Part shown: positions 28,599-59,362 of the stretch, piece by piece
Layout of the letters: the number at the start of each line of letters is the position of its first letter
Position numbering within the stretch: the first letter of the stretch is position 1
NCBI GenBank assembly: GCA_958295695.1
Contig: OY282363.1
Coordinates: forward strand, 2,298,225-2,362,224
DNA length: 64,000 nucleotides
Reading direction: 5' to 3'
DNA from: an uncultured Alphaproteobacteria bacterium
Lineage (GTDB): Bacteria; Pseudomonadota; Alphaproteobacteria; SP197
Translations under genes and position numbers: made by a program
The notes under the pieces: generated by a model
What the model saw: the letters and a program-made list of their open reading frames with translations, nothing else
What the model was told of the DNA's origin: nothing
The model's database searches: none

Positions 28599-28835
28599 GC
28601 GTGGCCCGCGCGCGTATCGGGTAGAACGAGAATGGAGAATGCGGCCGGGTGGGGCACCTGGCCCCAACGAACCGTGAAGATCACAGCCCTCCCAACCGCG
28701 GGAGCATCCTCATGCATCGCGCACGATCGTGTCAACCCCCGATCCCACGGGCCCACGGGAACGGGCGATGCGGGATTGAGACCGCGGCCCGGTGGGCTAC
28801 AACGGGGGACCGACGCCGCTTGGGGAGGAGCCGCC

Positions 28836-35112: not shown

Positions 35113-36615
35113 TCAGCCGCGCCGGTGTTCGGGACCCATGGGTCCGAGCCGGACGCCCTCGCGCAGGTTCCGGTAGTCGAGCCCCTCCAGCCGGCAGGGG
35201 TGCTCGCCCGGCGCCTCGACCACCAGCGTGCGGGACGCGATGGGATCGTAGTCCGCGCGGAAATGGACGGTGCTCTTGACGGCCAGGATGTGCTGTTCGG
35301 TCGGCTCGATCCCGATATGGCGGAAACAGGCCTGGTCCAGGTTCTGGAAGCGGCGGCTCGAGACGACGACCCTCACGTCGCAGTCCGCGTCGGCGACGCG
35401 CAGAACGGCCATGGGGCCCAGATCGGTGCGCGCGCCGCGGTACATCTCGCCGGTGCAATCGAACGCGCCGTCGCCCAGGCGCTCGACGCGGAACCGGCCG
35501 CGGAACGGCGCCTGTCCGGGCCGGCCGGACTTGCCGCCCAGCGGCGCGTCGAACGCCGCGCCCGCGCCCCGCGCGTGGGCCTCGCGGGCGACCTCGGGGT
35601 CCCACAGCAGGGCGAGCGCCGCCCGCTGGGCGCGGTTCCGCACGAGGGCCTCCAGCAGGCCCGTGGTGTCGGACGTCCCGCCCGCGCCGGGGTTGTCCTG
35701 GGCGTCGGCCAGCACGACCGGCCCGCGCGGCTCCGCCATGGCCCGCCGCACGGCGTCGTCGGGGGACAGCAGGACGTTCTCGAACTCCCCCTCGGCGGCG
35801 ACGAACGCCTCCGCGATCCGCCGCGCGGCCTCGCGCGCGCGCTCCGGGTCGGGATCGTAGGCCACCGCGGCGGGGCCGCATTCGCGGATGTCGGCCGGCG
35901 GGAACGCCAGCGCCAGGTCGCTGCCCGCGATCCCGTCGAGCTCCTGGCTCATCACGAGGTCGTAGAACCCGCGGTTGGGCCGCGCGTCGGTCCATTGCGC
36001 GGTCAGCGGGACCAGGAAGGGCGACCGCGCGAAACCCTTGTGGAGCGTCTCGCCGGCCAGAAGCCGCGTCAGGAGCCGGTAGCAGCGCTCGCCGGCGATC
36101 CCCATGTCGACATGCGGATAGGTGCGGTAGATCGACATCGCGGACGACAACGCCACCATGCGCTCGGTGATGTTGGCGTGAAGGTCCAGGGTGTTGACCG
36201 CGGGAACGCCGTGGCCCACCGCGCGGCGGACCCGCTCCAGGATCTCCCCTTCCCCGTCCTGGAGGTGCTCGACCACCATGGCCCCGTGGAGATCGAGGAA
36301 GACCGCCTCGAACGGCCCCTTGCGCGCGAGGTCCTCCACCATCATGCCCGCGATGCGTTCGAAGGCGTCCTCGGTCACGTAGGACGAAGGCTCCGCCGAG
36401 GCCCAGAGGAGCGGAACGAGGTCGTGGCCGTCGGCCTTGGCCGCCTGGATGAAGCCCTCGAGCCCCAGGTTCAGGCCCGCGACCGCGTCGACCGTCTCCG
36501 GCCCGCGCGTCAGGCCGGGCCAGGCGTCGTGCATCTCGAAATCGGCGAACGTCGCGTTGGTGGACGCGAACGTGTTGGTCTCGTGCTGGAACCCGCCGAC
36601 GGCGATCCGCGCCAT
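35113..36615 (-). CDS. M81 family metallopeptidase (MlrC-like)
   Basis: 500 residues, full MlrC length. GGFQHETNTF at the N-terminus, DLHANIT near residue 165 and the C-terminal MlrC domain (DFEMHD early; VADADCDVRVVVSS and QHILAVKSTVHFRADY late) are all family signatures with zinc-ligand His/Asp. MlrC of sphingomonads degrades linearised microcystin, but most homologues sit in general amino-acid or opine clusters. The C-terminus is intact. It leads the run M81, SDR, hydrolase, acyl-CoA synthetase. Confidence 0.9.
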   Translation of the reverse strand: MARIAVGGFQHETNTFASTNATFADFEMHDAWPGLTRGPETVDAVAGLNLGLEGFIQAAKADGHDLVPLLWASAEPSSYVTEDAFERIAGMMVEDLARKGPFEAVFLDLHGAMVVEHLQDGEGEILERVRRAVGHGVPAVNTLDLHANITERMVALSSAMSIYRTYPHVDMGIAGERCYRLLTRLLAGETLHKGFARSPFLVPLTAQWTDARPNRGFYDLVMSQELDGIAGSDLALAFPPADIRECGPAAVAYDPDPERAREAARRIAEAFVAAEGEFENVLLSPDDAVRRAMAEPRGPVVLADAQDNPGAGGTSDTTGLLEALVRNRAQRAALALLWDPEVAREAHARGAGAAFDAPLGGKSGRPGQAPFRGRFRVERLGDGAFDCTGEMYRGARTDLGPMAVLRVADADCDVRVVVSSRRFQNLDQACFRHIGIEPTEQHILAVKSTVHFRADYDPIASRTLVVEAPGEHPCRLEGLDYRNLREGVRLGPMGPEHRRG

Positions 36616-36721
36616 GGCGCCCTCCCGTTGAACGCCGCCATGGTGTCACCCCGCCGCCGCGCCGTCCACGGCCGCGCGCGCGGCCGGCTCGGGCGGCGGG
36701 TCGGTCCGGCGGGGTCGCGCT

Positions 36722-37252
36722 CTAACGGTCCGGCCGTCGCCGGGGCTTTCCCAGCCTCTTGCCGTCGTAATGCTCGTAGCCCTCCACGGGCCGCGAAAGC
36801 CGGAAACGCCCGTCCAGGATGCGGGCCAGTCCCGAGTCGAGCAGACGGTGAAGGTCGGTCCGCAGGAGCACGCCGTCGCCGCCGAGCCGCCACGGGCGCA
36901 GATGCGCCGCGTCGAGCAGTTGCGGAACGTCGCAGCCCGTGACCGCGCACTTCCCGCCGTAGGCGCGCATGAGGCGTTCGCGGAACCGCCGCTGTTCCGG
37001 CCGCTCGGCCGTCTCCCGCGTCGGGCCGTCGGGGTTGTAGGCCAGGACGGTCTCGTCGTCGGCCCACAGGAAGAAAGGCTCGACCTCCTCGACGCCGGTC
37101 AGCGCGATCCAGCCCGGGCCGGCCCCGGCGACATGGGCCCGGGCGACGACGCGATGGGCCGGGTCCGCCACATGGGCCGGTCCCGAGGGCGTCCGCGACG
37201 GGTCCGCCAGACGCTGACGCGGCGCCGAGGGATCGTTCGAGATCAGCAACAT
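36722..37252 (-). CDS. HNH endonuclease just downstream of the CRISPR array
   Basis: 176 residues. The N-terminal 95 residues are unrecognised. Residues 100-145 form an HNH fold: Cys102 and Cys107 (zinc or structural pair), His117 in DAAHLRPW, and DLHRLLD with His135. This type resembles McrA-like and other stand-alone restriction HNH proteins. The ATG at 37252 lies 55 bases beyond the last repeat and on the strand from which the array is probably transcribed, so it may share the CRISPR-Cas transcript. The reading frame stays open back through the repeats, but I treat that part as array, not protein. Whether it works with the type IV complex is unknown. Confidence 0.72.
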   Translation of the reverse strand: MLLISNDPSAPRQRLADPSRTPSGPAHVADPAHRVVARAHVAGAGPGWIALTGVEEVEPFFLWADDETVLAYNPDGPTRETAERPEQRRFRERLMRAYGGKCAVTGCDVPQLLDAAHLRPWRLGGDGVLLRTDLHRLLDSGLARILDGRFRLSRPVEGYEHYDGKRLGKPRRRPDR

Positions 37253-37307
37253 CGCTCGGGGCCCGTTCCGCGGTCCATGTCGTTCCGTGTCCCTGGCCGC
37301 GATCCGG

Positions 37308-37938
37308 CCCGCTTCCGCCCCCCGTTCGTGGGGCGACTCCATCCTGATCGTGCGCCGGCCCGGCCGGCACCCCCTGTCATCCGCCCCCCGTTCGTGGGGC
37401 GACTCCATCTTCCTATTCGCCGAATACAACCGGTTCGGCCTGTCATCCGCCCCCCGTTCGTGGGGCGACTCCATCGGCTGGGCCGGCGGCGAGACCCACC
37501 CCTTCCTGTCATCCGCCCCCCGTTCGTGGGGCGACTCCATCCGCGACGGCCTCGTCCAGCTCCGCTGCACCCTGTCATCCGCCCCCCGTTCGTGGGGCGA
37601 CTCCATCGGCGCCGGACCAGACCAGCTGCGCCTCGCCCTGTCATCCGCCCCCCGTTCGTGGGGCGACTCCATCCTGGCCCTGGAGTGGCCGTCGCTGCGG
37701 GACCTGTCATCCGCCCCCCGTTCGTGGGGCGACTCCATCTCGCCGCCCGATGACGACGTTTCCGACGGCCTGTCATCCGCCCCCCGTTCGTGGGGCGACT
37801 CCATCCTTATGGACGAGCTTAGCTATGCCATGGCCCTGTCATCCGCCCCCCGTTCGTGGGGCGACTCCATCCCGGCGCCCGTCGCCGTTCACGATCTCCA
37901 GCCTGTCATCCGCCCCCCGTTCGTGGGGCGACTCCATC
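37308..37938 (-). CRISPR. CRISPR array, 10 repeats of 36 bp and 9 spacers (type IV locus)
   Basis: Repeats start at 37308, 37374, 37440, 37506, 37572, 37638, 37704, 37770, 37836 and 37903. Spacers are 30 nt except the last one on the right, 31 nt. Nine repeats are identical; the leftmost has 4 mismatches in its first 7 bases, marking the leader-distal end. The leader is thus on the right and transcription goes leftwards, as for the cas genes. Read on the minus strand the repeat is GATGGAGT, stem CGCCCC, 8-nt loop, stem GGGGCG, then GATGACAG: a hairpin followed by an 8-nt tail, as expected for Cas6 processing. Only 60 bases separate the array from csf4. Confidence 0.97.
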
Positions 37939-37998
37939 CCGATGACGTACAACCCGTTGTCCGGGTGGCGCAAGACGCCGGCCCCGGCCCGGCGCAAG

Positions 37999-39834
37999 TC
38001 ATCGCGCGGAGGACGCGCCCGCGCCGTTCCCGTGGATTTCGGCGGCGGCGTAGGCGTCCCCGAAACGGCGGGGGACCGCCCCCGCCAGGTCTCGATGGCG
38101 AACGGCCTCCCCCTGGCCCGTCAGCCGCCGGGGGTCCAGGGCGAGCGTGTCCGGCAACGGGAACCTCGGGTCGGCGATCCAGACCGTCACCCGGTCGCGG
38201 GGTCCGCGGACGCCGCGGCCCAGCCCCTGCGCCAGCCGGCGAACCGCCTCCCGGCGGTTCAGGCCGAGGAGAATCCCCTTCGCCTCCTCTCCGTCGCGAC
38301 CCCGCGTCTCCAGGAACCGGCCCAGAAGCCGCGTCCGTCCGGGGCTGGGCGGCGGGAACGGGACGCGGAGAATCACGATATGGGCGAGGAGGCCCGGCAG
38401 GTCCGTCCCGGCCCACGCCGCCGGCGTGACGAGGACGGCGTCCGGCGACGACCTGAACTCGTCGAGGCGGCCGGCGAGGCTCTCGCCCCGGCGGTGCGCC
38501 ACGATCCCGCCGACGCGCCGGGCCACCTCGTCCACGTCCGCGAAGGACGGCGCGAGCGCCAGCACCCGGCCGCCTTCGTCCATCGCCGCGCGGACCATGC
38601 CCGCGGCGTAGTCGTCGAAGGCCGGGTTCCGCTCTCCCCCGCCGCGGAAGGGCGGCGGAACGTTCCGGTCGGCGAGCCTGAACGCCATGGCGCCGAAGCG
38701 TTCCGGTTCGACCCGCAGCGGGACCGCCGCGAGACCGTCCGCGCCCACCGTCCGCAGGAACGGCTCGAAGGCGTCCCGGCCGCCGTCGCGGCCGGCGGCG
38801 AGCGTGGCGCTGACGAACAGGGTCTTGCGGCCGTCGTAGGCGCGCCGCAGAACGCGGCCGGGGTCCAGCGCGAGCACCTCGAAGCGATGGCCGCCGTGCG
38901 CGGCGACCACCGCCGCGCCGCGCCGGGGCGTGGCGGGATCGAGATTGACGAACGCGGAGAGGGCGCGGCGCACATCGCCCGCATGTTCGGAGTCGGCGGT
39001 CTCCAGCGCGGCCCGGATCGCCTCCGCGCGCCGCGCCGCCTCCGGGTCCCGTTGCTTGAAGACCGCCTCGCCGTCTCCCACCGCCTGTCCGGCCCACGCC
39101 TCGAACGCCGCCACGGCGGCGTCCAGGCCGGCCGTCGCGTGCCGCTCCCGCACCGCCTCCAGGTCGAGCGGCGTCACGCGCGCCTCGGCGAAGCCGGCGG
39201 CGGCGGAAGGCAGCGCGTCGCCCTCGTCGTAGACCGCGATGTCGGCGGCGACTTCGCCCCGGACGGCGTCGAGCACCGACATGGCGTGGGTCTGCACGAC
39301 GATGCCGGCCGCGCCGGTCTCCACGCGCTGCGCGTCGTAGGCGTCCTGGCGGCGGCAGGACGACGTGAGACAGATATCCGCGCGCGCGACGGGCAGGGCG
39401 CCGTGGCCGGCCTCGAAATCGTCGATGAGGCCGCCATGCCCCATCGCTTCCCTCAGCAGCGCGCGGGCTTCCCCGTCGAGGTCGTCCCGGTTCGCCAGAA
39501 GCCGCGCGACGCGGCCCGGCGAAAGGAAGTTCGCCCGTCCGAGACGGCGCGCCACCGCGACCGGACGGGGCAGCGCCCCGGCGAGGCGGCGCAGGGCCTC
39601 CGCCGCCTGCTCCAGTTGCTGGGTGGTATGGGTCGAGACGACGACTCGCCGCCCGGCGCTCGCGGCGAGCGCCACGGGCGCCCCATAGGCGAGGGTCTTG
39701 CCGATCCCGGTCTCGGCGTTCACGCACATGACCGGCTTCCCGCCGGCGAGGAACTTCTCGATGTCCTCGGCGATCCGGTTCTGAGGCTCTCGCGGGGACG
39801 GCGCGACTTCCCGCAGCAGTCCGACGGCGTTCAC
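37999..39834 (-). CDS. csf4: CasDinG, type IV CRISPR-associated DinG-family helicase
   Basis: 611 residues of an XPD/DinG-like SF2 helicase. Walker A is AETGIGKT at 40-47, the Walker B box is DEGD at 203-206, motif V reads VTPAAWAGTDLPG, and motif VI is QGLGRGVRG from residue 536. The four-cysteine iron-sulfur site of XPD is absent; only Cys155 and Cys160 lie in the insertion, as seen in CasDinG proteins that lack the cluster. In type IV-A systems DinG is recruited to the crRNA-bound target and unwinds it, silencing plasmids without cutting. The GTG start overlaps the csf2 stop (GTGA). It is the last cas gene before the array. Confidence 0.87.
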   Translation of the reverse strand: MNAVGLLREVAPSPREPQNRIAEDIEKFLAGGKPVMCVNAETGIGKTLAYGAPVALAASAGRRVVVSTHTTQQLEQAAEALRRLAGALPRPVAVARRLGRANFLSPGRVARLLANRDDLDGEARALLREAMGHGGLIDDFEAGHGALPVARADICLTSSCRRQDAYDAQRVETGAAGIVVQTHAMSVLDAVRGEVAADIAVYDEGDALPSAAAGFAEARVTPLDLEAVRERHATAGLDAAVAAFEAWAGQAVGDGEAVFKQRDPEAARRAEAIRAALETADSEHAGDVRRALSAFVNLDPATPRRGAAVVAAHGGHRFEVLALDPGRVLRRAYDGRKTLFVSATLAAGRDGGRDAFEPFLRTVGADGLAAVPLRVEPERFGAMAFRLADRNVPPPFRGGGERNPAFDDYAAGMVRAAMDEGGRVLALAPSFADVDEVARRVGGIVAHRRGESLAGRLDEFRSSPDAVLVTPAAWAGTDLPGLLAHIVILRVPFPPPSPGRTRLLGRFLETRGRDGEEAKGILLGLNRREAVRRLAQGLGRGVRGPRDRVTVWIADPRFPLPDTLALDPRRLTGQGEAVRHRDLAGAVPRRFGDAYAAAEIHGNGAGASSAR

Positions 39835-40904
39835 GCGGTCTCGTCCGCCACGCCGTCGAGGACTCCGGCCGACCTCTCGAACGCGGTTCGGATTACGGGG
39901 GCGCCGCTCTCGACATGGAGGGCGAAATCCGCGATGCGCAACGTTCCGGCGTCCTCGAAATCGCCATCGTCCTCGGCCAGGCGGAGTCCGTATTCGGCGC
40001 TGAAGTAGCCCTCGCCGCGCGATTCGTGGGCGCCGAGGCGTCCGTCCCGCGCGAGGCGGCGCAGGGCGAAGAACGCCCAGGCGAGCTCGTCCGCGTCGGC
40101 GTTCCTGATCCGCATCCGGTGCCGCATCCTGGCGCCCTCCGGGATCGCCTGCCAGCCGCCGAGCGGTTGCTGGATGTTGACCGCGCCTCCCGCTTCTTCA
40201 CGCAGAGCCTTCGTCTTGTCCTCCAGTCGCTCCTTCTCCTCCGTCCACCCCTCGATCTTCTCCGGGTCCGGCGCCGGGCGCCGCTTCTCGCGGCGGATCT
40301 TTGCGCCGAGGTCTTCGGCCTCGCCCTCGGCGAGATTGGCCTCGACCACCTTCCGGTCGCTTTCGAGAAAGTCCTTGTACGCCGTCGCGTCCATGAAGCC
40401 GGCGAGGTCGGGCTCGCGCTGGAAGGGATGCGAGCGCGCGCCGCGCCCCTTGTGACTGGGCGCGGTCAGGGGTTCGTCGGGAACGGCGTCGCCGATCTGC
40501 CAGCGGCCCGCGATCTTCTCCGCCATGGCGCCGAACAGGGACACGATCGGCTCCTCGCGCCGCAGCCGGGCCATCGCCTCGTGGTCGACGGTCCGTTCGT
40601 CCTCGCCGGCCTTCTTCCTGTCCTTGACGCCGCCCTTGGCGACCAGAAGGAAGTCCTTGGGGGTCATCGGCCGCTGGCCGGCGGCGCGCGCCGCCGCGAC
40701 CGCCCGGGCGGCGGCGTTGCGGAGCGCGCCCCGCACCGTGCTCCCCGGAATGTAGACCGTCTTCACGAAGTGCGTGCGATCCCAGAAGAACTTTTCAGGC
40801 AGGGTCAGGGCATCCACCCCTCCTTCCTTTTTCTTGTGGCCCGGCGGGCTGACCGAGATATCGGAGTCCGCCGTGATCGTTCCGTCCATAACAAGGTCCC
40901 ACAT
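39831..40904 (-). CDS. csf2: Csf2 (Cas7-type backbone subunit of the type IV complex)
   Basis: 357 residues of a RAMP-superfamily protein. IPGSTVRGALR at 52-62 is the Cas7-type first-helix signature. GWQAIPEGARMRHRMRI and the glycine-rich GRLGAHESRGEGYFSAEYG near 310 complete an RRM-like core. A long charged, probably coiled insertion (about residues 165-240) is rich in Glu, Lys and Arg. Csf2 polymerises along the crRNA. The start is 3 nt after the cas6 stop; the end overlaps csf4. Length and position agree with type IV Cas7. Confidence 0.82.
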   Translation of the reverse strand: MWDLVMDGTITADSDISVSPPGHKKKEGGVDALTLPEKFFWDRTHFVKTVYIPGSTVRGALRNAAARAVAAARAAGQRPMTPKDFLLVAKGGVKDRKKAGEDERTVDHEAMARLRREEPIVSLFGAMAEKIAGRWQIGDAVPDEPLTAPSHKGRGARSHPFQREPDLAGFMDATAYKDFLESDRKVVEANLAEGEAEDLGAKIRREKRRPAPDPEKIEGWTEEKERLEDKTKALREEAGGAVNIQQPLGGWQAIPEGARMRHRMRIRNADADELAWAFFALRRLARDGRLGAHESRGEGYFSAEYGLRLAEDDGDFEDAGTLRIADFALHVESGAPVIRTAFERSAGVLDGVADETA

Positions 40905-40907
40905 GGT

Positions 40908-41465
40908 TCAATCCTCCTTCTTGCCGATCAGGCGCAACATGCCGAGGCCCCAGGTCCGGCCGCCGCCGACGCCGGTCGTCATCGCCGACGCGACCCGCGC
41001 CGGATCCACGATCTCCACCACGCCCGAGAACTCCGAACGGTCCAGCCAGAACCCGGCCCCCGGCTTGCGGACGGGCTCGCGGACGACATCGACCGTCGCC
41101 GCGACGACGGCGAAGCCGTGCTCGCCGCCGCGCCGCTCGAGCCATTTCAGGCGACGGTCCGTTTCGGCCCGGCGCCAGGACCGCCGGCGTCCGGTCCCCC
41201 TGTCCTTCTGGCCGACGCGGGCGTGGAGGCTGAACAGCCAGCGTTCGCCCGCCGCCAGCGCCGGCGCGGCGAAGCCGCCGGGCGGGCGGACGATGCAGAG
41301 ATCCCCCGACGGACCGCGCCGCAACGCCCACAGGTAGGCGGCCTCCCGCCGCGCGCCGAACTTCGCGTCGAGGGCGCGGTGGATCGAATAGATGTCCGCG
41401 CCGGGCTCCAGCGGGAACACGAGCTCCGCCGCCCCGGCGGGCCGCGCGGACGCCGCGCGGCTCAC
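40908..41465 (-). CDS. csf5: Cas6-like crRNA-processing endonuclease (Csf5 position)
   Basis: 185 residues. IYSIHRALDAKFG near the N-terminus is strikingly like the YxxHRLxWxLF start of Cas6e proteins and supplies the candidate catalytic His. The C-terminal glycine-rich loop TTGVGGGRTWGLGML (about 163-177) is the RNA-binding signature of Cas6. It should cut the repeat hairpin, leaving the 8-nt GATGACAG handle. The GTG start overlaps the stop of the csf1-position gene (GTGA). Confidence 0.8.
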   Translation of the reverse strand: MSRAASARPAGAAELVFPLEPGADIYSIHRALDAKFGARREAAYLWALRRGPSGDLCIVRPPGGFAAPALAAGERWLFSLHARVGQKDRGTGRRRSWRRAETDRRLKWLERRGGEHGFAVVAATVDVVREPVRKPGAGFWLDRSEFSGVVEIVDPARVASAMTTGVGGGRTWGLGMLRLIGKKED

Positions 41466-42118
41466 GGCCCCTCTCCCGCGATCTTCAACTCCAGGGAGGT
41501 CACGCCTTCGAGCAGGTCGAGGGCGTCGAAGAAGGCCGCGCGGTCGATCTTCAGCTTCCCGATCGTCGTTCGGAGCTGCTTGTCGATCCCGTCGGTGTCG
41601 CCCATCGCCTCGATCCGGTCGTCGAGCAGTTTCCGGGCCTTCTCCGCCCGGCGGGCCGATCCGAGCGCCTTCAGGGCGCGCCGGGCGCGACCGACCCGGA
41701 CGGAGTCGACGGACCAAACCCCGTCCGGCTCGTTCACGACAACGGCGGTGCCGTCTCCCGGCACGATCCCGTCCAGGGTGAAGGGCCGCCTCCCCGTCTT
41801 GAGGATGACATGAGGCCGAGGCGCGGCGAGGAGATCGCGAATCGCGCCGCCCAGGAAGGCCGGCCCGGGGGGACGCCCGACCAGCCAGGAGGGAAGCGGA
41901 ACAACGCATGGCGGAATCCTGCTGGCCACCTCGGTCCTCTTCCCGGTGATGACGATGGTGCTCGTCCCGCCCTTCTGCGCGAACGTTCCTTTCTTGCCGT
42001 CCGGCAATTCGTATTCCGCCCGGAGCGCCTCGTCGATGTCGCGTTCCACATCTCCGGTCGCCTTGTCCGGCGGCATCCAGTGGGAAAGAAACCGGTCCCA
42101 GAGGAGACAGGACTTCAC
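41462..42118 (-). CDS. type IV CRISPR protein in the Csf1 position, unrecognised family
   Basis: 218 residues. The first 125 residues are mixed beta strands (TSTIVITGKRTEVASRI; HVILKTGRRPFTLDG). The rest is helical and rich in Arg/Lys (RARRALKALGSARRAEKARKL), ending with SLELKIAGEGP. Known Csf1 proteins carry a four-cysteine zinc finger; only isolated cysteines are seen here, so I do not name it csf1 outright. By elimination it should be the large or small subunit of the complex, and the helical C-terminal half could play the Cas11-like role (inference). Both ends overlap neighbouring genes by four bases. Confidence 0.7.
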   Translation of the reverse strand: MKSCLLWDRFLSHWMPPDKATGDVERDIDEALRAEYELPDGKKGTFAQKGGTSTIVITGKRTEVASRIPPCVVPLPSWLVGRPPGPAFLGGAIRDLLAAPRPHVILKTGRRPFTLDGIVPGDGTAVVVNEPDGVWSVDSVRVGRARRALKALGSARRAEKARKLLDDRIEAMGDTDGIDKQLRTTIGKLKIDRAAFFDALDLLEGVTSLELKIAGEGP

Positions 42119-42813
42119 GGCCCGATCCGGCTTCGCTGGCCCGGCTGGACGACATGGGACGCGGGCAGGGCGCAAAGCTCGTCCTCCGTCGCCCAGCGCG
42201 GCAGCCGGGGCCGCGCCGGCCCGAAGGACACATCCTCGACGGGCAGCCCCAGGCCGTTCCACACATCCTTCGGCACCACCCGGGCCGGACCGCCCGCGAA
42301 GTCCGTGTAGCCGAGCCCCGCGGGCGCGTCGCGGAGACGGTCGATCCGGGTCTTCTTCGCGTCCACGCGGCCGAACCCGCCCGCCCGCGACTTCTTGCCG
42401 ATGGAATCGAGCCCGTCGATCAGGGTTTCGATCCCGTCCATGTCGCCGCGACCCAGGACGAAGGCCCGCCGCGCCGATATGGCGTCGTACCGGTCGAAGG
42501 TCGGTTTCAGCGCATCCCGCGCCTGGGTCTTCCCGCGGGGCCCGCCACGCTCGCCCGCCAGCTCGCCGTACTCGAACCGGTCCCATCGCGGGTTCATGAC
42601 ATAGTGGACCTCGCGGGTCGCGACCGGCCCCAGGAAGAGCAGTTCGCTCGCCTGCCAGACGCCATCGACATGCGCCAGCGGCAGGGACAGATGCGCCGTC
42701 CCGGCGTCGCCGGTGCGGAGCCAGGTCCGATGCGCGAGCAGCCCGTCGAACGCGACCGAACGGTTGACCAGGACGGGTTCGACGGGCTCGAAGCGTATGC
42801 GAAAGAAGTCCAC
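42115..42813 (-). CDS. csf3: Csf3 (Cas5-type subunit)
   Basis: 232 residues from the GTG at 42813. FRIRFEPVEPVLVN followed by FDGLLAH gives the usual N-terminal strand-helix of Csf3/Cas5. IDGLDSIGKKSRAGGFGRV around residues 137-155 is the glycine-rich RAMP motif. It should bind the 5' handle of the crRNA at one end of the backbone. A TTG at 42831 would add six residues, but the promoter at 42841-42869 puts the transcript start around 42834, which favours the GTG. It is first in the five-gene operon. Confidence 0.8.
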   Translation of the reverse strand: MDFFRIRFEPVEPVLVNRSVAFDGLLAHRTWLRTGDAGTAHLSLPLAHVDGVWQASELLFLGPVATREVHYVMNPRWDRFEYGELAGERGGPRGKTQARDALKPTFDRYDAISARRAFVLGRGDMDGIETLIDGLDSIGKKSRAGGFGRVDAKKTRIDRLRDAPAGLGYTDFAGGPARVVPKDVWNGLGLPVEDVSFGPARPRLPRWATEDELCALPASHVVQPGQRSRIGP

Positions 42814-42840
42814 GGCGGTTTCCCGGACCAAACAGGGAAC

Positions 42841-42869
42841 ATTATGGGTGTTTCGGCGCCGATAGTCAA
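42841..42869 (-). promoter_or_regulatory. promoter of the type IV cas operon
   Basis: On the minus strand TTGACT (42869-42864), exactly 17 nt, then CATAAT (42846-42841), a near-consensus sigma70 promoter standing out from GC-rich surroundings, about 30 nt ahead of csf3. Confidence 0.75.
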
Positions 42870-42888
42870 GCCCGCGCGCGCCGGCGGA

Positions 42889-45135
42889 TCAGGCGGCGGG
42901 CCGGGCCGGGGGACGCGAGGCGTCGTATCCCTCGAACGGTTCGGGATCGAGAAACCGGCGGACGACGTTGCGCATCAGGCGCGCGACGTTGTTGTCGAAG
43001 CCGTTGACCGGCAGCGCGCCGGCGAACGCGATCGAGCCCGTCGAGAACACGGCCCCGCCGCCGTCGATCTCGAAGAACGTCATGTCGGCCCGCGCGAGCG
43101 GGTGGTCGCCGTCCGCGACGGGCTGGTTCGACGTCAGCTCCTCGAGCGCGACCAGCATGCCCGCGCCGTGGTCCTCGGAGCGGGCCACGACGAGGGCGTG
43201 GCGCGGCGTGCCGAGCGCGACGTCGGCCCGGTCCAATTCGAGGCCAGCCGCGCCGCCGCCCACGAGTCCGAAATCGCCGACGATCTCGTCGTCGATCCCC
43301 TCGAAGATGAAGGCGGCGCGCGGGTCGCGGCTCGCCTCGGTCCGCCGGTAGAAGCTCGAACGGTCGAAGCCCTGGGCGGTGAAGCCGACCCCGGCGAGCG
43401 CCTGCGGCGTGCGCCCGCAGCGCCGCCACAGGCCCCCGTATTCGCCCGTGAAGCTCATCCAGGACTCGCCGGCCTCGGAGACCCAGGATCGCGTGCCGCC
43501 CTCGGTCTTGCGGCATTCGATCGCGCCCGGCGAACCGGGGCGGTACGCGATGCGCCAGTAGAAGCCGTTGGCGCCCGTGTAGATCATGCGCCCGCCGCGG
43601 CCGAGATAGGACCGGAGGGCGTCGAGCATCCCGGCGGTGTGGTACTCCGGGTGGGTTCCGGTGACGACCGCGGCGTAGCCGTCGAGCGCGGCCGCGCCCT
43701 CGGCGTGGAGCTCCTCGTCGGTCACAACGTCGTAGGCGAACCCCTCGTGCTCCAGCCACGCCGTGATGTGGGTGTCGGCGACGAGGCCCCAGACGCGGCC
43801 GCGCGGCCTCATGTTCAGGATCGGACGCAGGCGCGAGGAGAGGCTGACGCCGCTGCCGTCGGAATGCCGGTCGTAGGTCGAGAGGCCGTATTCCGGATGG
43901 GCCCGCAGGAAGCAATCGGACGGCGTCATGACGGTCGCGCGGAACCGTTTCATCTCGACCGCGTCGTCGCGGAAGTGGCGGCCGGAGTTGGCGTAGGCCA
44001 TGTAGGTGGCCGTCGGCATCAGGAAGCAGAGGCCGGCCCGCCGTTCGCCCCGGGGCGGAACGACGGCGAAGGGCGCGAACTCCTCGGCGTCCCCGGCGGT
44101 GAGATGGAGCGCGTAGATCGCGCTCCGCGCCCCTTCCGGCGCGGTCCAGGCGTGGCTCGGCTCCCATCCGGCGTCGTAGACGTCGTCGTCGTGGAAATGG
44201 ATCGCGCCGTAGTCCCCGGGGGCGTGGCGCCAGCACATCTCGCGCCCGGACCAGCGGGCGCCGCGCACGCCGCGCTGCGGCAGGTGCGCGAGCGCGCCGT
44301 GGCGGCCGTTGCCGGAGACGTCGGTGACGGTGTCTCCGGGGATGTCTTGCGCGAAGTCCCAGGCCGCGACGATGGTGTCGCGCACCGCGTCCGCCCCGGG
44401 GTCGGCCTCGGCCAGCGCGACCTCCGCGGCGTCCAGGGCGCGCGACGCGACGCGCGGCGCCTCGAGGCGGCCGTTGAAGCAGCCGGCGTGGCGCCCTCCG
44501 CCGTCGTCGCGGCGCCAGGCCGCCATCAGGAGCGGCCCCTCGCAGGCCGCGGGATCGAGCGGGAGGTCGGCCGTGCGCTCGACGCGACGGCCGCCCGCGA
44601 GCGGCTCCTGGATCAGCGTCACGGTCCCGTTCGCCGCATCGACGCAGGCGGCGAGGCGGTACCAGGCCCGCGCCGCCATCGGCGCGCCCGCGGTGATCCA
44701 GACGCTGGCCGCGCCGTCGCCCGCCACCAGGCCGGCGGCGCCGTCGTCGCCCACCACCAGGCTGACGCCGGTGTGCGCGCTCTCCGACCATGTGCCGACG
44801 ATCCCCTGGCGGCCCTTCCCGGGCGTCGTGGGCATCGCCAGCGCCTGCAGGGTGAAGCCCCGGCCGAAGCGCCATGCGGGAGACGCCGGAACCACGGCGT
44901 GCGAACCGGCGTGGATGGCCCGCGCCGCGCCCGGATGGCGGCCGTCGAGCGGCGAGGCCACCGCCTCGGCCTGGAACGGCGCGCCCCTCGGGTCGTCGTC
45001 GGCGCAGATCAGGCGGACCAGCCGGGCCTCGTAGGCGTCCGGTCCGTCGCAGCTCACGTGGAACCGGATCGTCTCGCCCGGCCTGACGGAAAGCCTGTCC
45101 GAATAGGCGTTGAGCGGGCGGTCGCCTATCGCCAC
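42889..45135 (-). CDS. N,N-dimethylformamidase-like large subunit, copy 3
   Basis: 748 residues, homologous along its length to the two copies at 20-25 kb (HFHDDDVYDAGWE; SFTGEYGGLWRR; DNNVARLMRNV). Putative iron ligands Tyr381 (YMAYAN), Tyr421 (TYDRHSDGSG) and Glu497 (HPEYHT) keep the same spacing. It is more divergent in the N-terminal half. The GTG at 45135 overlaps the end of the M19 dipeptidase gene by 10 nt, tying this copy to a dipeptidase instead of a small subunit. Possible joint action on a formyl- or acyl-amide and the resulting amino acid conjugate is inference. Confidence 0.83.
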   Translation of the reverse strand: MAIGDRPLNAYSDRLSVRPGETIRFHVSCDGPDAYEARLVRLICADDDPRGAPFQAEAVASPLDGRHPGAARAIHAGSHAVVPASPAWRFGRGFTLQALAMPTTPGKGRQGIVGTWSESAHTGVSLVVGDDGAAGLVAGDGAASVWITAGAPMAARAWYRLAACVDAANGTVTLIQEPLAGGRRVERTADLPLDPAACEGPLLMAAWRRDDGGGRHAGCFNGRLEAPRVASRALDAAEVALAEADPGADAVRDTIVAAWDFAQDIPGDTVTDVSGNGRHGALAHLPQRGVRGARWSGREMCWRHAPGDYGAIHFHDDDVYDAGWEPSHAWTAPEGARSAIYALHLTAGDAEEFAPFAVVPPRGERRAGLCFLMPTATYMAYANSGRHFRDDAVEMKRFRATVMTPSDCFLRAHPEYGLSTYDRHSDGSGVSLSSRLRPILNMRPRGRVWGLVADTHITAWLEHEGFAYDVVTDEELHAEGAAALDGYAAVVTGTHPEYHTAGMLDALRSYLGRGGRMIYTGANGFYWRIAYRPGSPGAIECRKTEGGTRSWVSEAGESWMSFTGEYGGLWRRCGRTPQALAGVGFTAQGFDRSSFYRRTEASRDPRAAFIFEGIDDEIVGDFGLVGGGAAGLELDRADVALGTPRHALVVARSEDHGAGMLVALEELTSNQPVADGDHPLARADMTFFEIDGGGAVFSTGSIAFAGALPVNGFDNNVARLMRNVVRRFLDPEPFEGYDASRPPARPAA

Positions 45136-59235: not shown

Positions 59236-59242
59236 TCCTCCG

Positions 59243-59333
59243 TCACTCACGGGGAGTCCCTCGCGGGGCTGAGAGGCGCCTTTCGCGCCGACCCGTCGAA
59301 CCTGATCCGGATCATGCCGGCGTAGGGATTGAG
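59243..59333 (+). promoter_or_regulatory. TPP riboswitch (THI element)
   Basis: The conserved pieces occur in order: GGGGAGTCCC, GGGCTGAGAGG, a variable stem (GGCGCC/GCGCC), GACCC, GAACCTGATCCGGATCATG and CCGGCGTAGGGA. It should bind thiamine pyrophosphate and lower expression of the downstream transporter. Confidence 0.96.
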
Positions 59334-59362
59334 GCGACGGGCTTCCCAGGGAAACCGGCCCT

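Follow-up and report, generated by a model that had tools for sequence, protein, structure and literature searches.

Separate DinG and HNH nuclease genes on either side of the array in a chromosomal type IV-A-like CRISPR-Cas module

Type IV CRISPR-Cas systems are mostly plasmid-borne. They usually have no nuclease, and in the form that cleaves its target the nuclease is joined to the helicase. CasDinG-HNH, the only cleaving variant known, combines helicase and nuclease in one chain; IV-A2 is described as having HNH fused to DinG (PMC12669027). The Sulfitobacter CasDinG-HNH carries out directional cleavage of double-stranded DNA, for which both the ATPase and the HNH residues are required, and it uses a 5′ YCN PAM (PMC10910872). 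When the Sulfitobacter HNH is fused to a nuclease-free CasDinG, silencing is converted to deletion (PMC12714560). The published gene order for the CasDinG-HNH variant is cas5, cas8, cas6, cas7, array, dinG-HNH, and the Nordella protein, unlike that of Sulfitobacter, has two histidines and an aspartate and no zinc knuckle (PMC11981726).

The window analysed here is a stretch of 64,000 nucleotides from an uncultured alphaproteobacterium. Within positions 36722-42869 it contains a type IV locus on the minus strand, with the transcription order csf3-gene 2-cas6-csf2-dinG-[array]-HNH. The features are listed below in that order; L005 and L019 are two related loci in other genomes.

42841..42869, minus strand: predicted sigma-70-like promoter TTGACT-17-CATAAT, upstream of csf3 (consensus match)
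42115..42831, minus strand: csf3 (cas5), 238 aa, TTG start (PADLOC Csf3_0_IV, 6.4e-19; 68% identical to L005)
41462..42118, minus strand: gene 2, 218 aa, in the csf1/cas8 position (position; homologues in L005 and L019)
40908..41465, minus strand: cas6 (Cas6e-like), 185 aa (PADLOC Cas6, 5.6e-19; Pfam PF08798, 6e-16)
39831..40904, minus strand: csf2 (cas7), 357 aa (PADLOC Csf2_0_IV, 3.3e-40)
37999..39834, minus strand: csf4/dinG helicase, 611 aa (PADLOC Csf4_0_IVA, 2.6e-98)
37939..37998, minus strand: likely leader, ending GACAACGGGTT... immediately before the first repeat, likewise in L005
37307..37938, minus strand: CRISPR array, 10 repeats of 37 nt and 9 spacers of 29-30 nt (repeat search)
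36722..37252, minus strand: stand-alone HNH_2 nuclease gene, 176 aa (PF13391, 9e-8; likely start 37252)

The initial annotation of this DNA described csf3, cas6, csf2 and csf4 (DinG) as lying head to tail on one strand behind a promoter, with closely packed junctions and a 10-repeat array, and the profile matches and coordinates above bear this out. The junctions csf3/gene 2, gene 2/cas6 and csf2/dinG are 4-nt overlaps, and cas6 and csf2 are separated by a 3-nt gap. The promoter is the only such site in positions 36600-43000, where 0.1 would be expected from shuffled sequence. For csf3, an alternative GTG start at 42813 fits the start of the L005 gene better in the alignment. Csf2 also matches the Csf2 of the Klebsiella pneumoniae IV-A3 complex (PDB 8rc2, 3.3e-20). 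DinG has no fused nuclease, and its motifs ETGIGKT (at residue 41), DEGD (203) and GRGVR (539) are intact.

The Csf2 and Csf3 scores fall below the strict NCBIfam cut-offs, though the PADLOC profiles match. For both proteins the type IV profiles were the best, and no type I or type III signature gene was found at the locus, so that the outcome named in advance as counting against type IV, in which profiles of those types match in place of Csf2 and Csf3, did not arise. The choice had originally been left between IV-A and IV-E. With a type IV Csf2 and Csf3 and a DinG (Csf4), all matching their profiles best, the locus is IV-A-like; membership of IV-E was rejected, since Csf3 and gene 2 are separate and the Csf3-Csf1 fusion profile gives only 0.0095, compared with 6e-19 for the general Csf3 profile. 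The IV-A1 and IV-A3 systems of Pseudomonas and Klebsiella plasmids (L023 and PDB 8rc2) likewise have an array and homologues of Csf2, Csf3, Cas6 and DinG, but they have no nuclease, have a different gene order and are usually found on plasmids. A long type IV array on a plasmid of Bosea sp. ANAM02 (L020:9029-11018) is highly degenerate: many of its repeats have diverged, and it has no nuclease gene in its vicinity.

No cas1 or cas3 gene is present in the operon. The absence of adaptation genes had been correctly noted; the only cas1 detected genome-wide lies some 2.1 Mb off and forms part of a Cas9 (II-C-like) locus, whose repeat differs from that of the type IV array. That locus (L042:5028-12100; G000:C1 about 231500-238600) consists of Cas9-cas1-cas2 and an array in which a third repeat occurs in 31 copies and one spacer is doubled in tandem. 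Type IV systems are usually without adaptation genes, unlike L023 from a Pseudomonas paraeruginosa plasmid, where a gene annotated as cas1f lies directly after the type IV-A locus (L023:9630-10499).

Gene 2 had been taken for csf1, but it gave no profile match in any library tried. Homologues occupy the same position in L005 (65% identical) and L019 (28%, weak). A structure model of its product (pLDDT 51) gave no significant match with Foldseek or VIA; structural similarity to chain L in IV-A3 complexes was weak (Z 2.1-3.2). Gene 2 is a candidate Csf1 by position only.

The statement that there is no nuclease effector does not hold, because an HNH_2 open reading frame lies directly after the array, in the orientation of the cas genes and inside the interval that the initial annotation had itself marked out. 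The protein consists of an N-terminal module of about 75 residues followed by the HNH domain, which scores 32.3 bits against PF13391 (Pfam cut-off 21) and has intact H117, D126 and H135. The N-terminal module gave no profile match. A structure model of the protein reached a pLDDT of only 50 and was left out of the analysis.

A Csf2 scan of 84,980 genomes, which detects close relatives only, gave a single match, L005 (67% identical). L005 lies on the chromosome of an uncultured alphaproteobacterial MAG, and its proteins are about 68% identical to those of the window. The order and direction of csf3, gene 2, cas6, csf2, dinG, array and HNH are the same, and the array has five repeats with a 66-nt period. 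The two HNH proteins are 68% identical from end to end, including the N-terminal module, although L005 has a glutamate at the position of D126. By the Nei-Gojobori count, dN is 0.23 and dS 0.63 for HNH, a ratio of 0.365; the five cas genes have dN/dS of 0.25-0.45 and a similar dS. When the open reading frames of the two loci are compared, similarity extends from csf3 to HNH, whereas the flanks show none. The identical order, the cas-like evolution of HNH and the limits of the similarity define the module as csf3-gene 2-cas6-csf2-dinG-[array]-HNH. It is very probable that HNH belongs to the type IV module, and this is more secure than the proposal that it cuts together with DinG. Two split loci are known, that of the window and L005.

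The locus was said to be chromosomal and surrounded by metabolic genes, and this was confirmed: it lies on a 3.4-Mb contig and its flanks are shared with congeners. One of these (G007) has the same flanking genes, encoding an SDR, MlrC, a DMF-amidase-like protein, an M19 dipeptidase and an aldehyde dehydrogenase, with an FrhB-like gene replacing the type IV module. An FrhB/FdhB-like gene is seen at the place of the module in two congeners (L057:2502-3770 and L056:2666-4117). Within the class, the csf2 profile matched 2 of 385 genomes; within the order it matched 1 of 16 (that of the window), and in a sample of the phylum 2 of 398. A system that is rare, chromosomal and patchy in this way suggests horizontal gain. 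Elsewhere in the window there is a DUF3800-VI RNA motif (28642-28698, minus strand; Rfam RF02915, 55.6 bits) and a TPP riboswitch (59240-59346, plus strand; RF00059).

Set against published descriptions, the locus most resembles the IV-A2 system of Sulfitobacter sp. JL08, having DinG plus an HNH encoded in the module, the cas5-cas8-cas6-cas7 order and an array adjoining the nuclease gene. The HNH residues are also comparable, with the same nine-residue spacing (D126-H135 in the window, D514-H523 in Sulfitobacter). The gene order had been called unusual, but its first four genes are those already published for CasDinG-HNH (PMC11981726); what differs is the remainder, as dinG here precedes the array instead of following it as part of dinG-HNH. 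In both the window and L005, HNH is a separate open reading frame beyond the array rather than a fusion, and it has an extra N-terminal module. It belongs to the HNH_2 family and has two cysteines, while the Sulfitobacter HNH is described as zinc-knuckle. What sets the locus apart from published IV-A2 is the encoding of DinG and HNH by two genes, one on each side of the array. No earlier description of a split dinG-array-HNH arrangement was found in a literature search, though an earlier mention is possible.

A Csf2 tree placed L019 (genome G026) as sister to the window and L005, with support of 95/98. L019 has the order csf3-gene 2-cas6-csf2-array-dinG, and thus differs from the window in having the array between csf2 and dinG and an HNH_2 domain, 43% identical to that of the window, fused to the end of DinG. 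The reading frame of the fusion (L019:7805-9814) is interrupted by a single TAG and lacks an evident start codon, which may reflect decay or sequence error. On the same chromosome as the window, about 1.6 Mb away, lies a further type IV locus, L006 (L006:7021-12321; G000:C1 about 710020-715320), in which csf3, a short gene 2, cas6 and csf2 are followed by an array of 17 repeats and, immediately after it, by a DinG-HNH fusion gene. It shares with the window the csf3-gene 2-cas6-csf2 order and an array before the nuclease gene, but its HNH is of the McrA-like family PF01844 and is fused to DinG, its Csf2 is only about 24% identical and its repeat is unrelated. A Cupriavidus plasmid HNH (H77) was considered as a further DinG-HNH fusion and was rejected, having no type IV neighbours.

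Nine repeats of the array are identical; the last departs from them by five mismatches at the 3′ end and so identifies the distal side of the array. The repeat hairpin has an energy z of -2.5. The 11 nt of GACAACGGGTT are common to the window and L005 at the same place before the first repeat, as is GGAYGACAGG in the 3′ part of the repeat, and together these place the leader on the dinG side. Matching of the spacers to phages and plasmids had been proposed as a check; the array as one stretch gave chance-level results only (best E 0.7 and 0.2, respectively). Exact 22-24-mers from four spacers were absent from viral contigs, in which no DinG relatives were found either. Matches to the genome itself and to congeners were at the level expected by chance in GC-rich DNA, and a search of the second contig and the window gave no excess over shuffled spacers. 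No protospacer, and hence no PAM, was found in these searches of phages, plasmids, viral contigs, the genome itself and its congeners.

The presence of separate helicase and nuclease genes suggests that the target is destroyed rather than silenced alone. By analogy with the Sulfitobacter fusion, the most likely mode, which we regard as probable, is that DinG unwinds the DNA while HNH cuts it in trans, so that it is shredded. The crRNA complex would be made up of Csf3, the gene 2 product, Cas6 and Csf2, with Cas6 expected to cleave every repeat past the hairpin, giving crRNAs whose 5′ tag ends in AUGACAGG. As proposed from the fused protein of Sulfitobacter, the complex would bind to double-stranded DNA matching its crRNA and open an R-loop; onto the strand thus displaced it would recruit DinG, which would unwind the target 5′ to 3′. 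HNH may be brought in trans, perhaps by its conserved N-terminal module, and, if it acts like its fused counterpart, would cleave the two strands in step with their exposure by DinG.

This model starts from what is observed, namely the gene content and order, the conservation of HNH with the module, the intact helicase motifs and HNH residues, and the chromosomal setting. It is favoured by the position of HNH, which lies after the array and evolves like the cas genes in two chromosomes that have diverged and whose flanks are unrelated, and by the HNH_2 domain fused to DinG in the sister L019. Further points in its favour are the matching gene order and the cleavage activity of the Sulfitobacter fusion, and the conversion of silencing to deletion by an added HNH. 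Against it, processing by Cas6 would sever the HNH message from the upstream genes. Also against it are that the HNH_2 family consists mostly of orphans, that L005 has a glutamate at D126, that there are only two split loci, and the HNH tree described below.

Alternatively, the system may work like the nuclease-free IV-A1 and IV-A3, with DinG unwinding causing silencing and HNH being a co-travelling restriction-like gene that lies outside interference. The window DinG indeed lacks a fused nuclease, and the array separates HNH from dinG. The HNH_2 family is mostly made up of orphan restriction-like proteins, common on both plasmids and chromosomes; those examined (L008-L015, L029-L032) share the HNH_2 domain, at about 26-53% identity, but are mostly larger (about 290-440 aa), have other N-terminal regions and, in the loci read, have no adjacent CRISPR genes. 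We consider this alternative unlikely, given that HNH has kept its place and diverged to the same extent as the cas genes between loci whose flanks differ, and that HNH_2 is fused to DinG in the sister lineage. The same conserved HNH gene, overlooked in the initial annotation, weakens the suggestion made there of a domesticated silencer.

Somewhat less likely again is that target recognition activates HNH independently of DinG. HNH would then either nick or cut DNA broadly, with toxic or abortive effect, or be recruited directly by the crRNA complex. The N-terminal module, conserved in L005 and without a profile match, may respond to another partner. We know of no precedent for a collateral HNH in type IV, and related loci carry HNH fused onto DinG, although the engineered CasDinG-HNH was toxic (PMC12714560). 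A reading of the locus as a remnant, inactive or in decay, which its lack of adaptation genes and of spacer matches and its rare, patchy occurrence might imply, is very improbable in view of its six open frames, dN/dS of 0.25-0.45 in all six genes, intact motifs and predicted promoter, and nine identical repeats.

Returning to cutting in trans, the analogy with the fusions is made weaker by the HNH tree, in which the HNH domain joined to DinG in L019 clusters with orphan plasmid nucleases, apart from the split HNH. A constraint joining the three type IV HNH_2 domains was marginally rejected (p-AU 0.038); the tree is weakly supported, with long branches and 115 columns, and was used solely as a caution. 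The split form could have arisen either when the array interrupted a fusion or by separate capture. Because the L006 nuclease comes from a different family, at least two HNH captures are likely. It is a more tentative idea, and on balance a doubtful one, that type IV-A has gained HNH on at least three occasions (as a McrA-like fusion, an HNH_2 fusion and a stand-alone HNH), and that here the nuclease is a subunit translated on its own, acting in trans and recruited through a module of its own; such a system could silence with DinG alone or destroy with DinG plus HNH.

In a natural form with two proteins, whether silencing and cutting can be separated as states of one system is open to direct test, and the presence of fused, split and Cas9 systems in one genome makes cross-talk between them testable. 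The split HNH would offer a detachable cutting subunit, and it bears on the route by which HNH nucleases enter class 1 systems.
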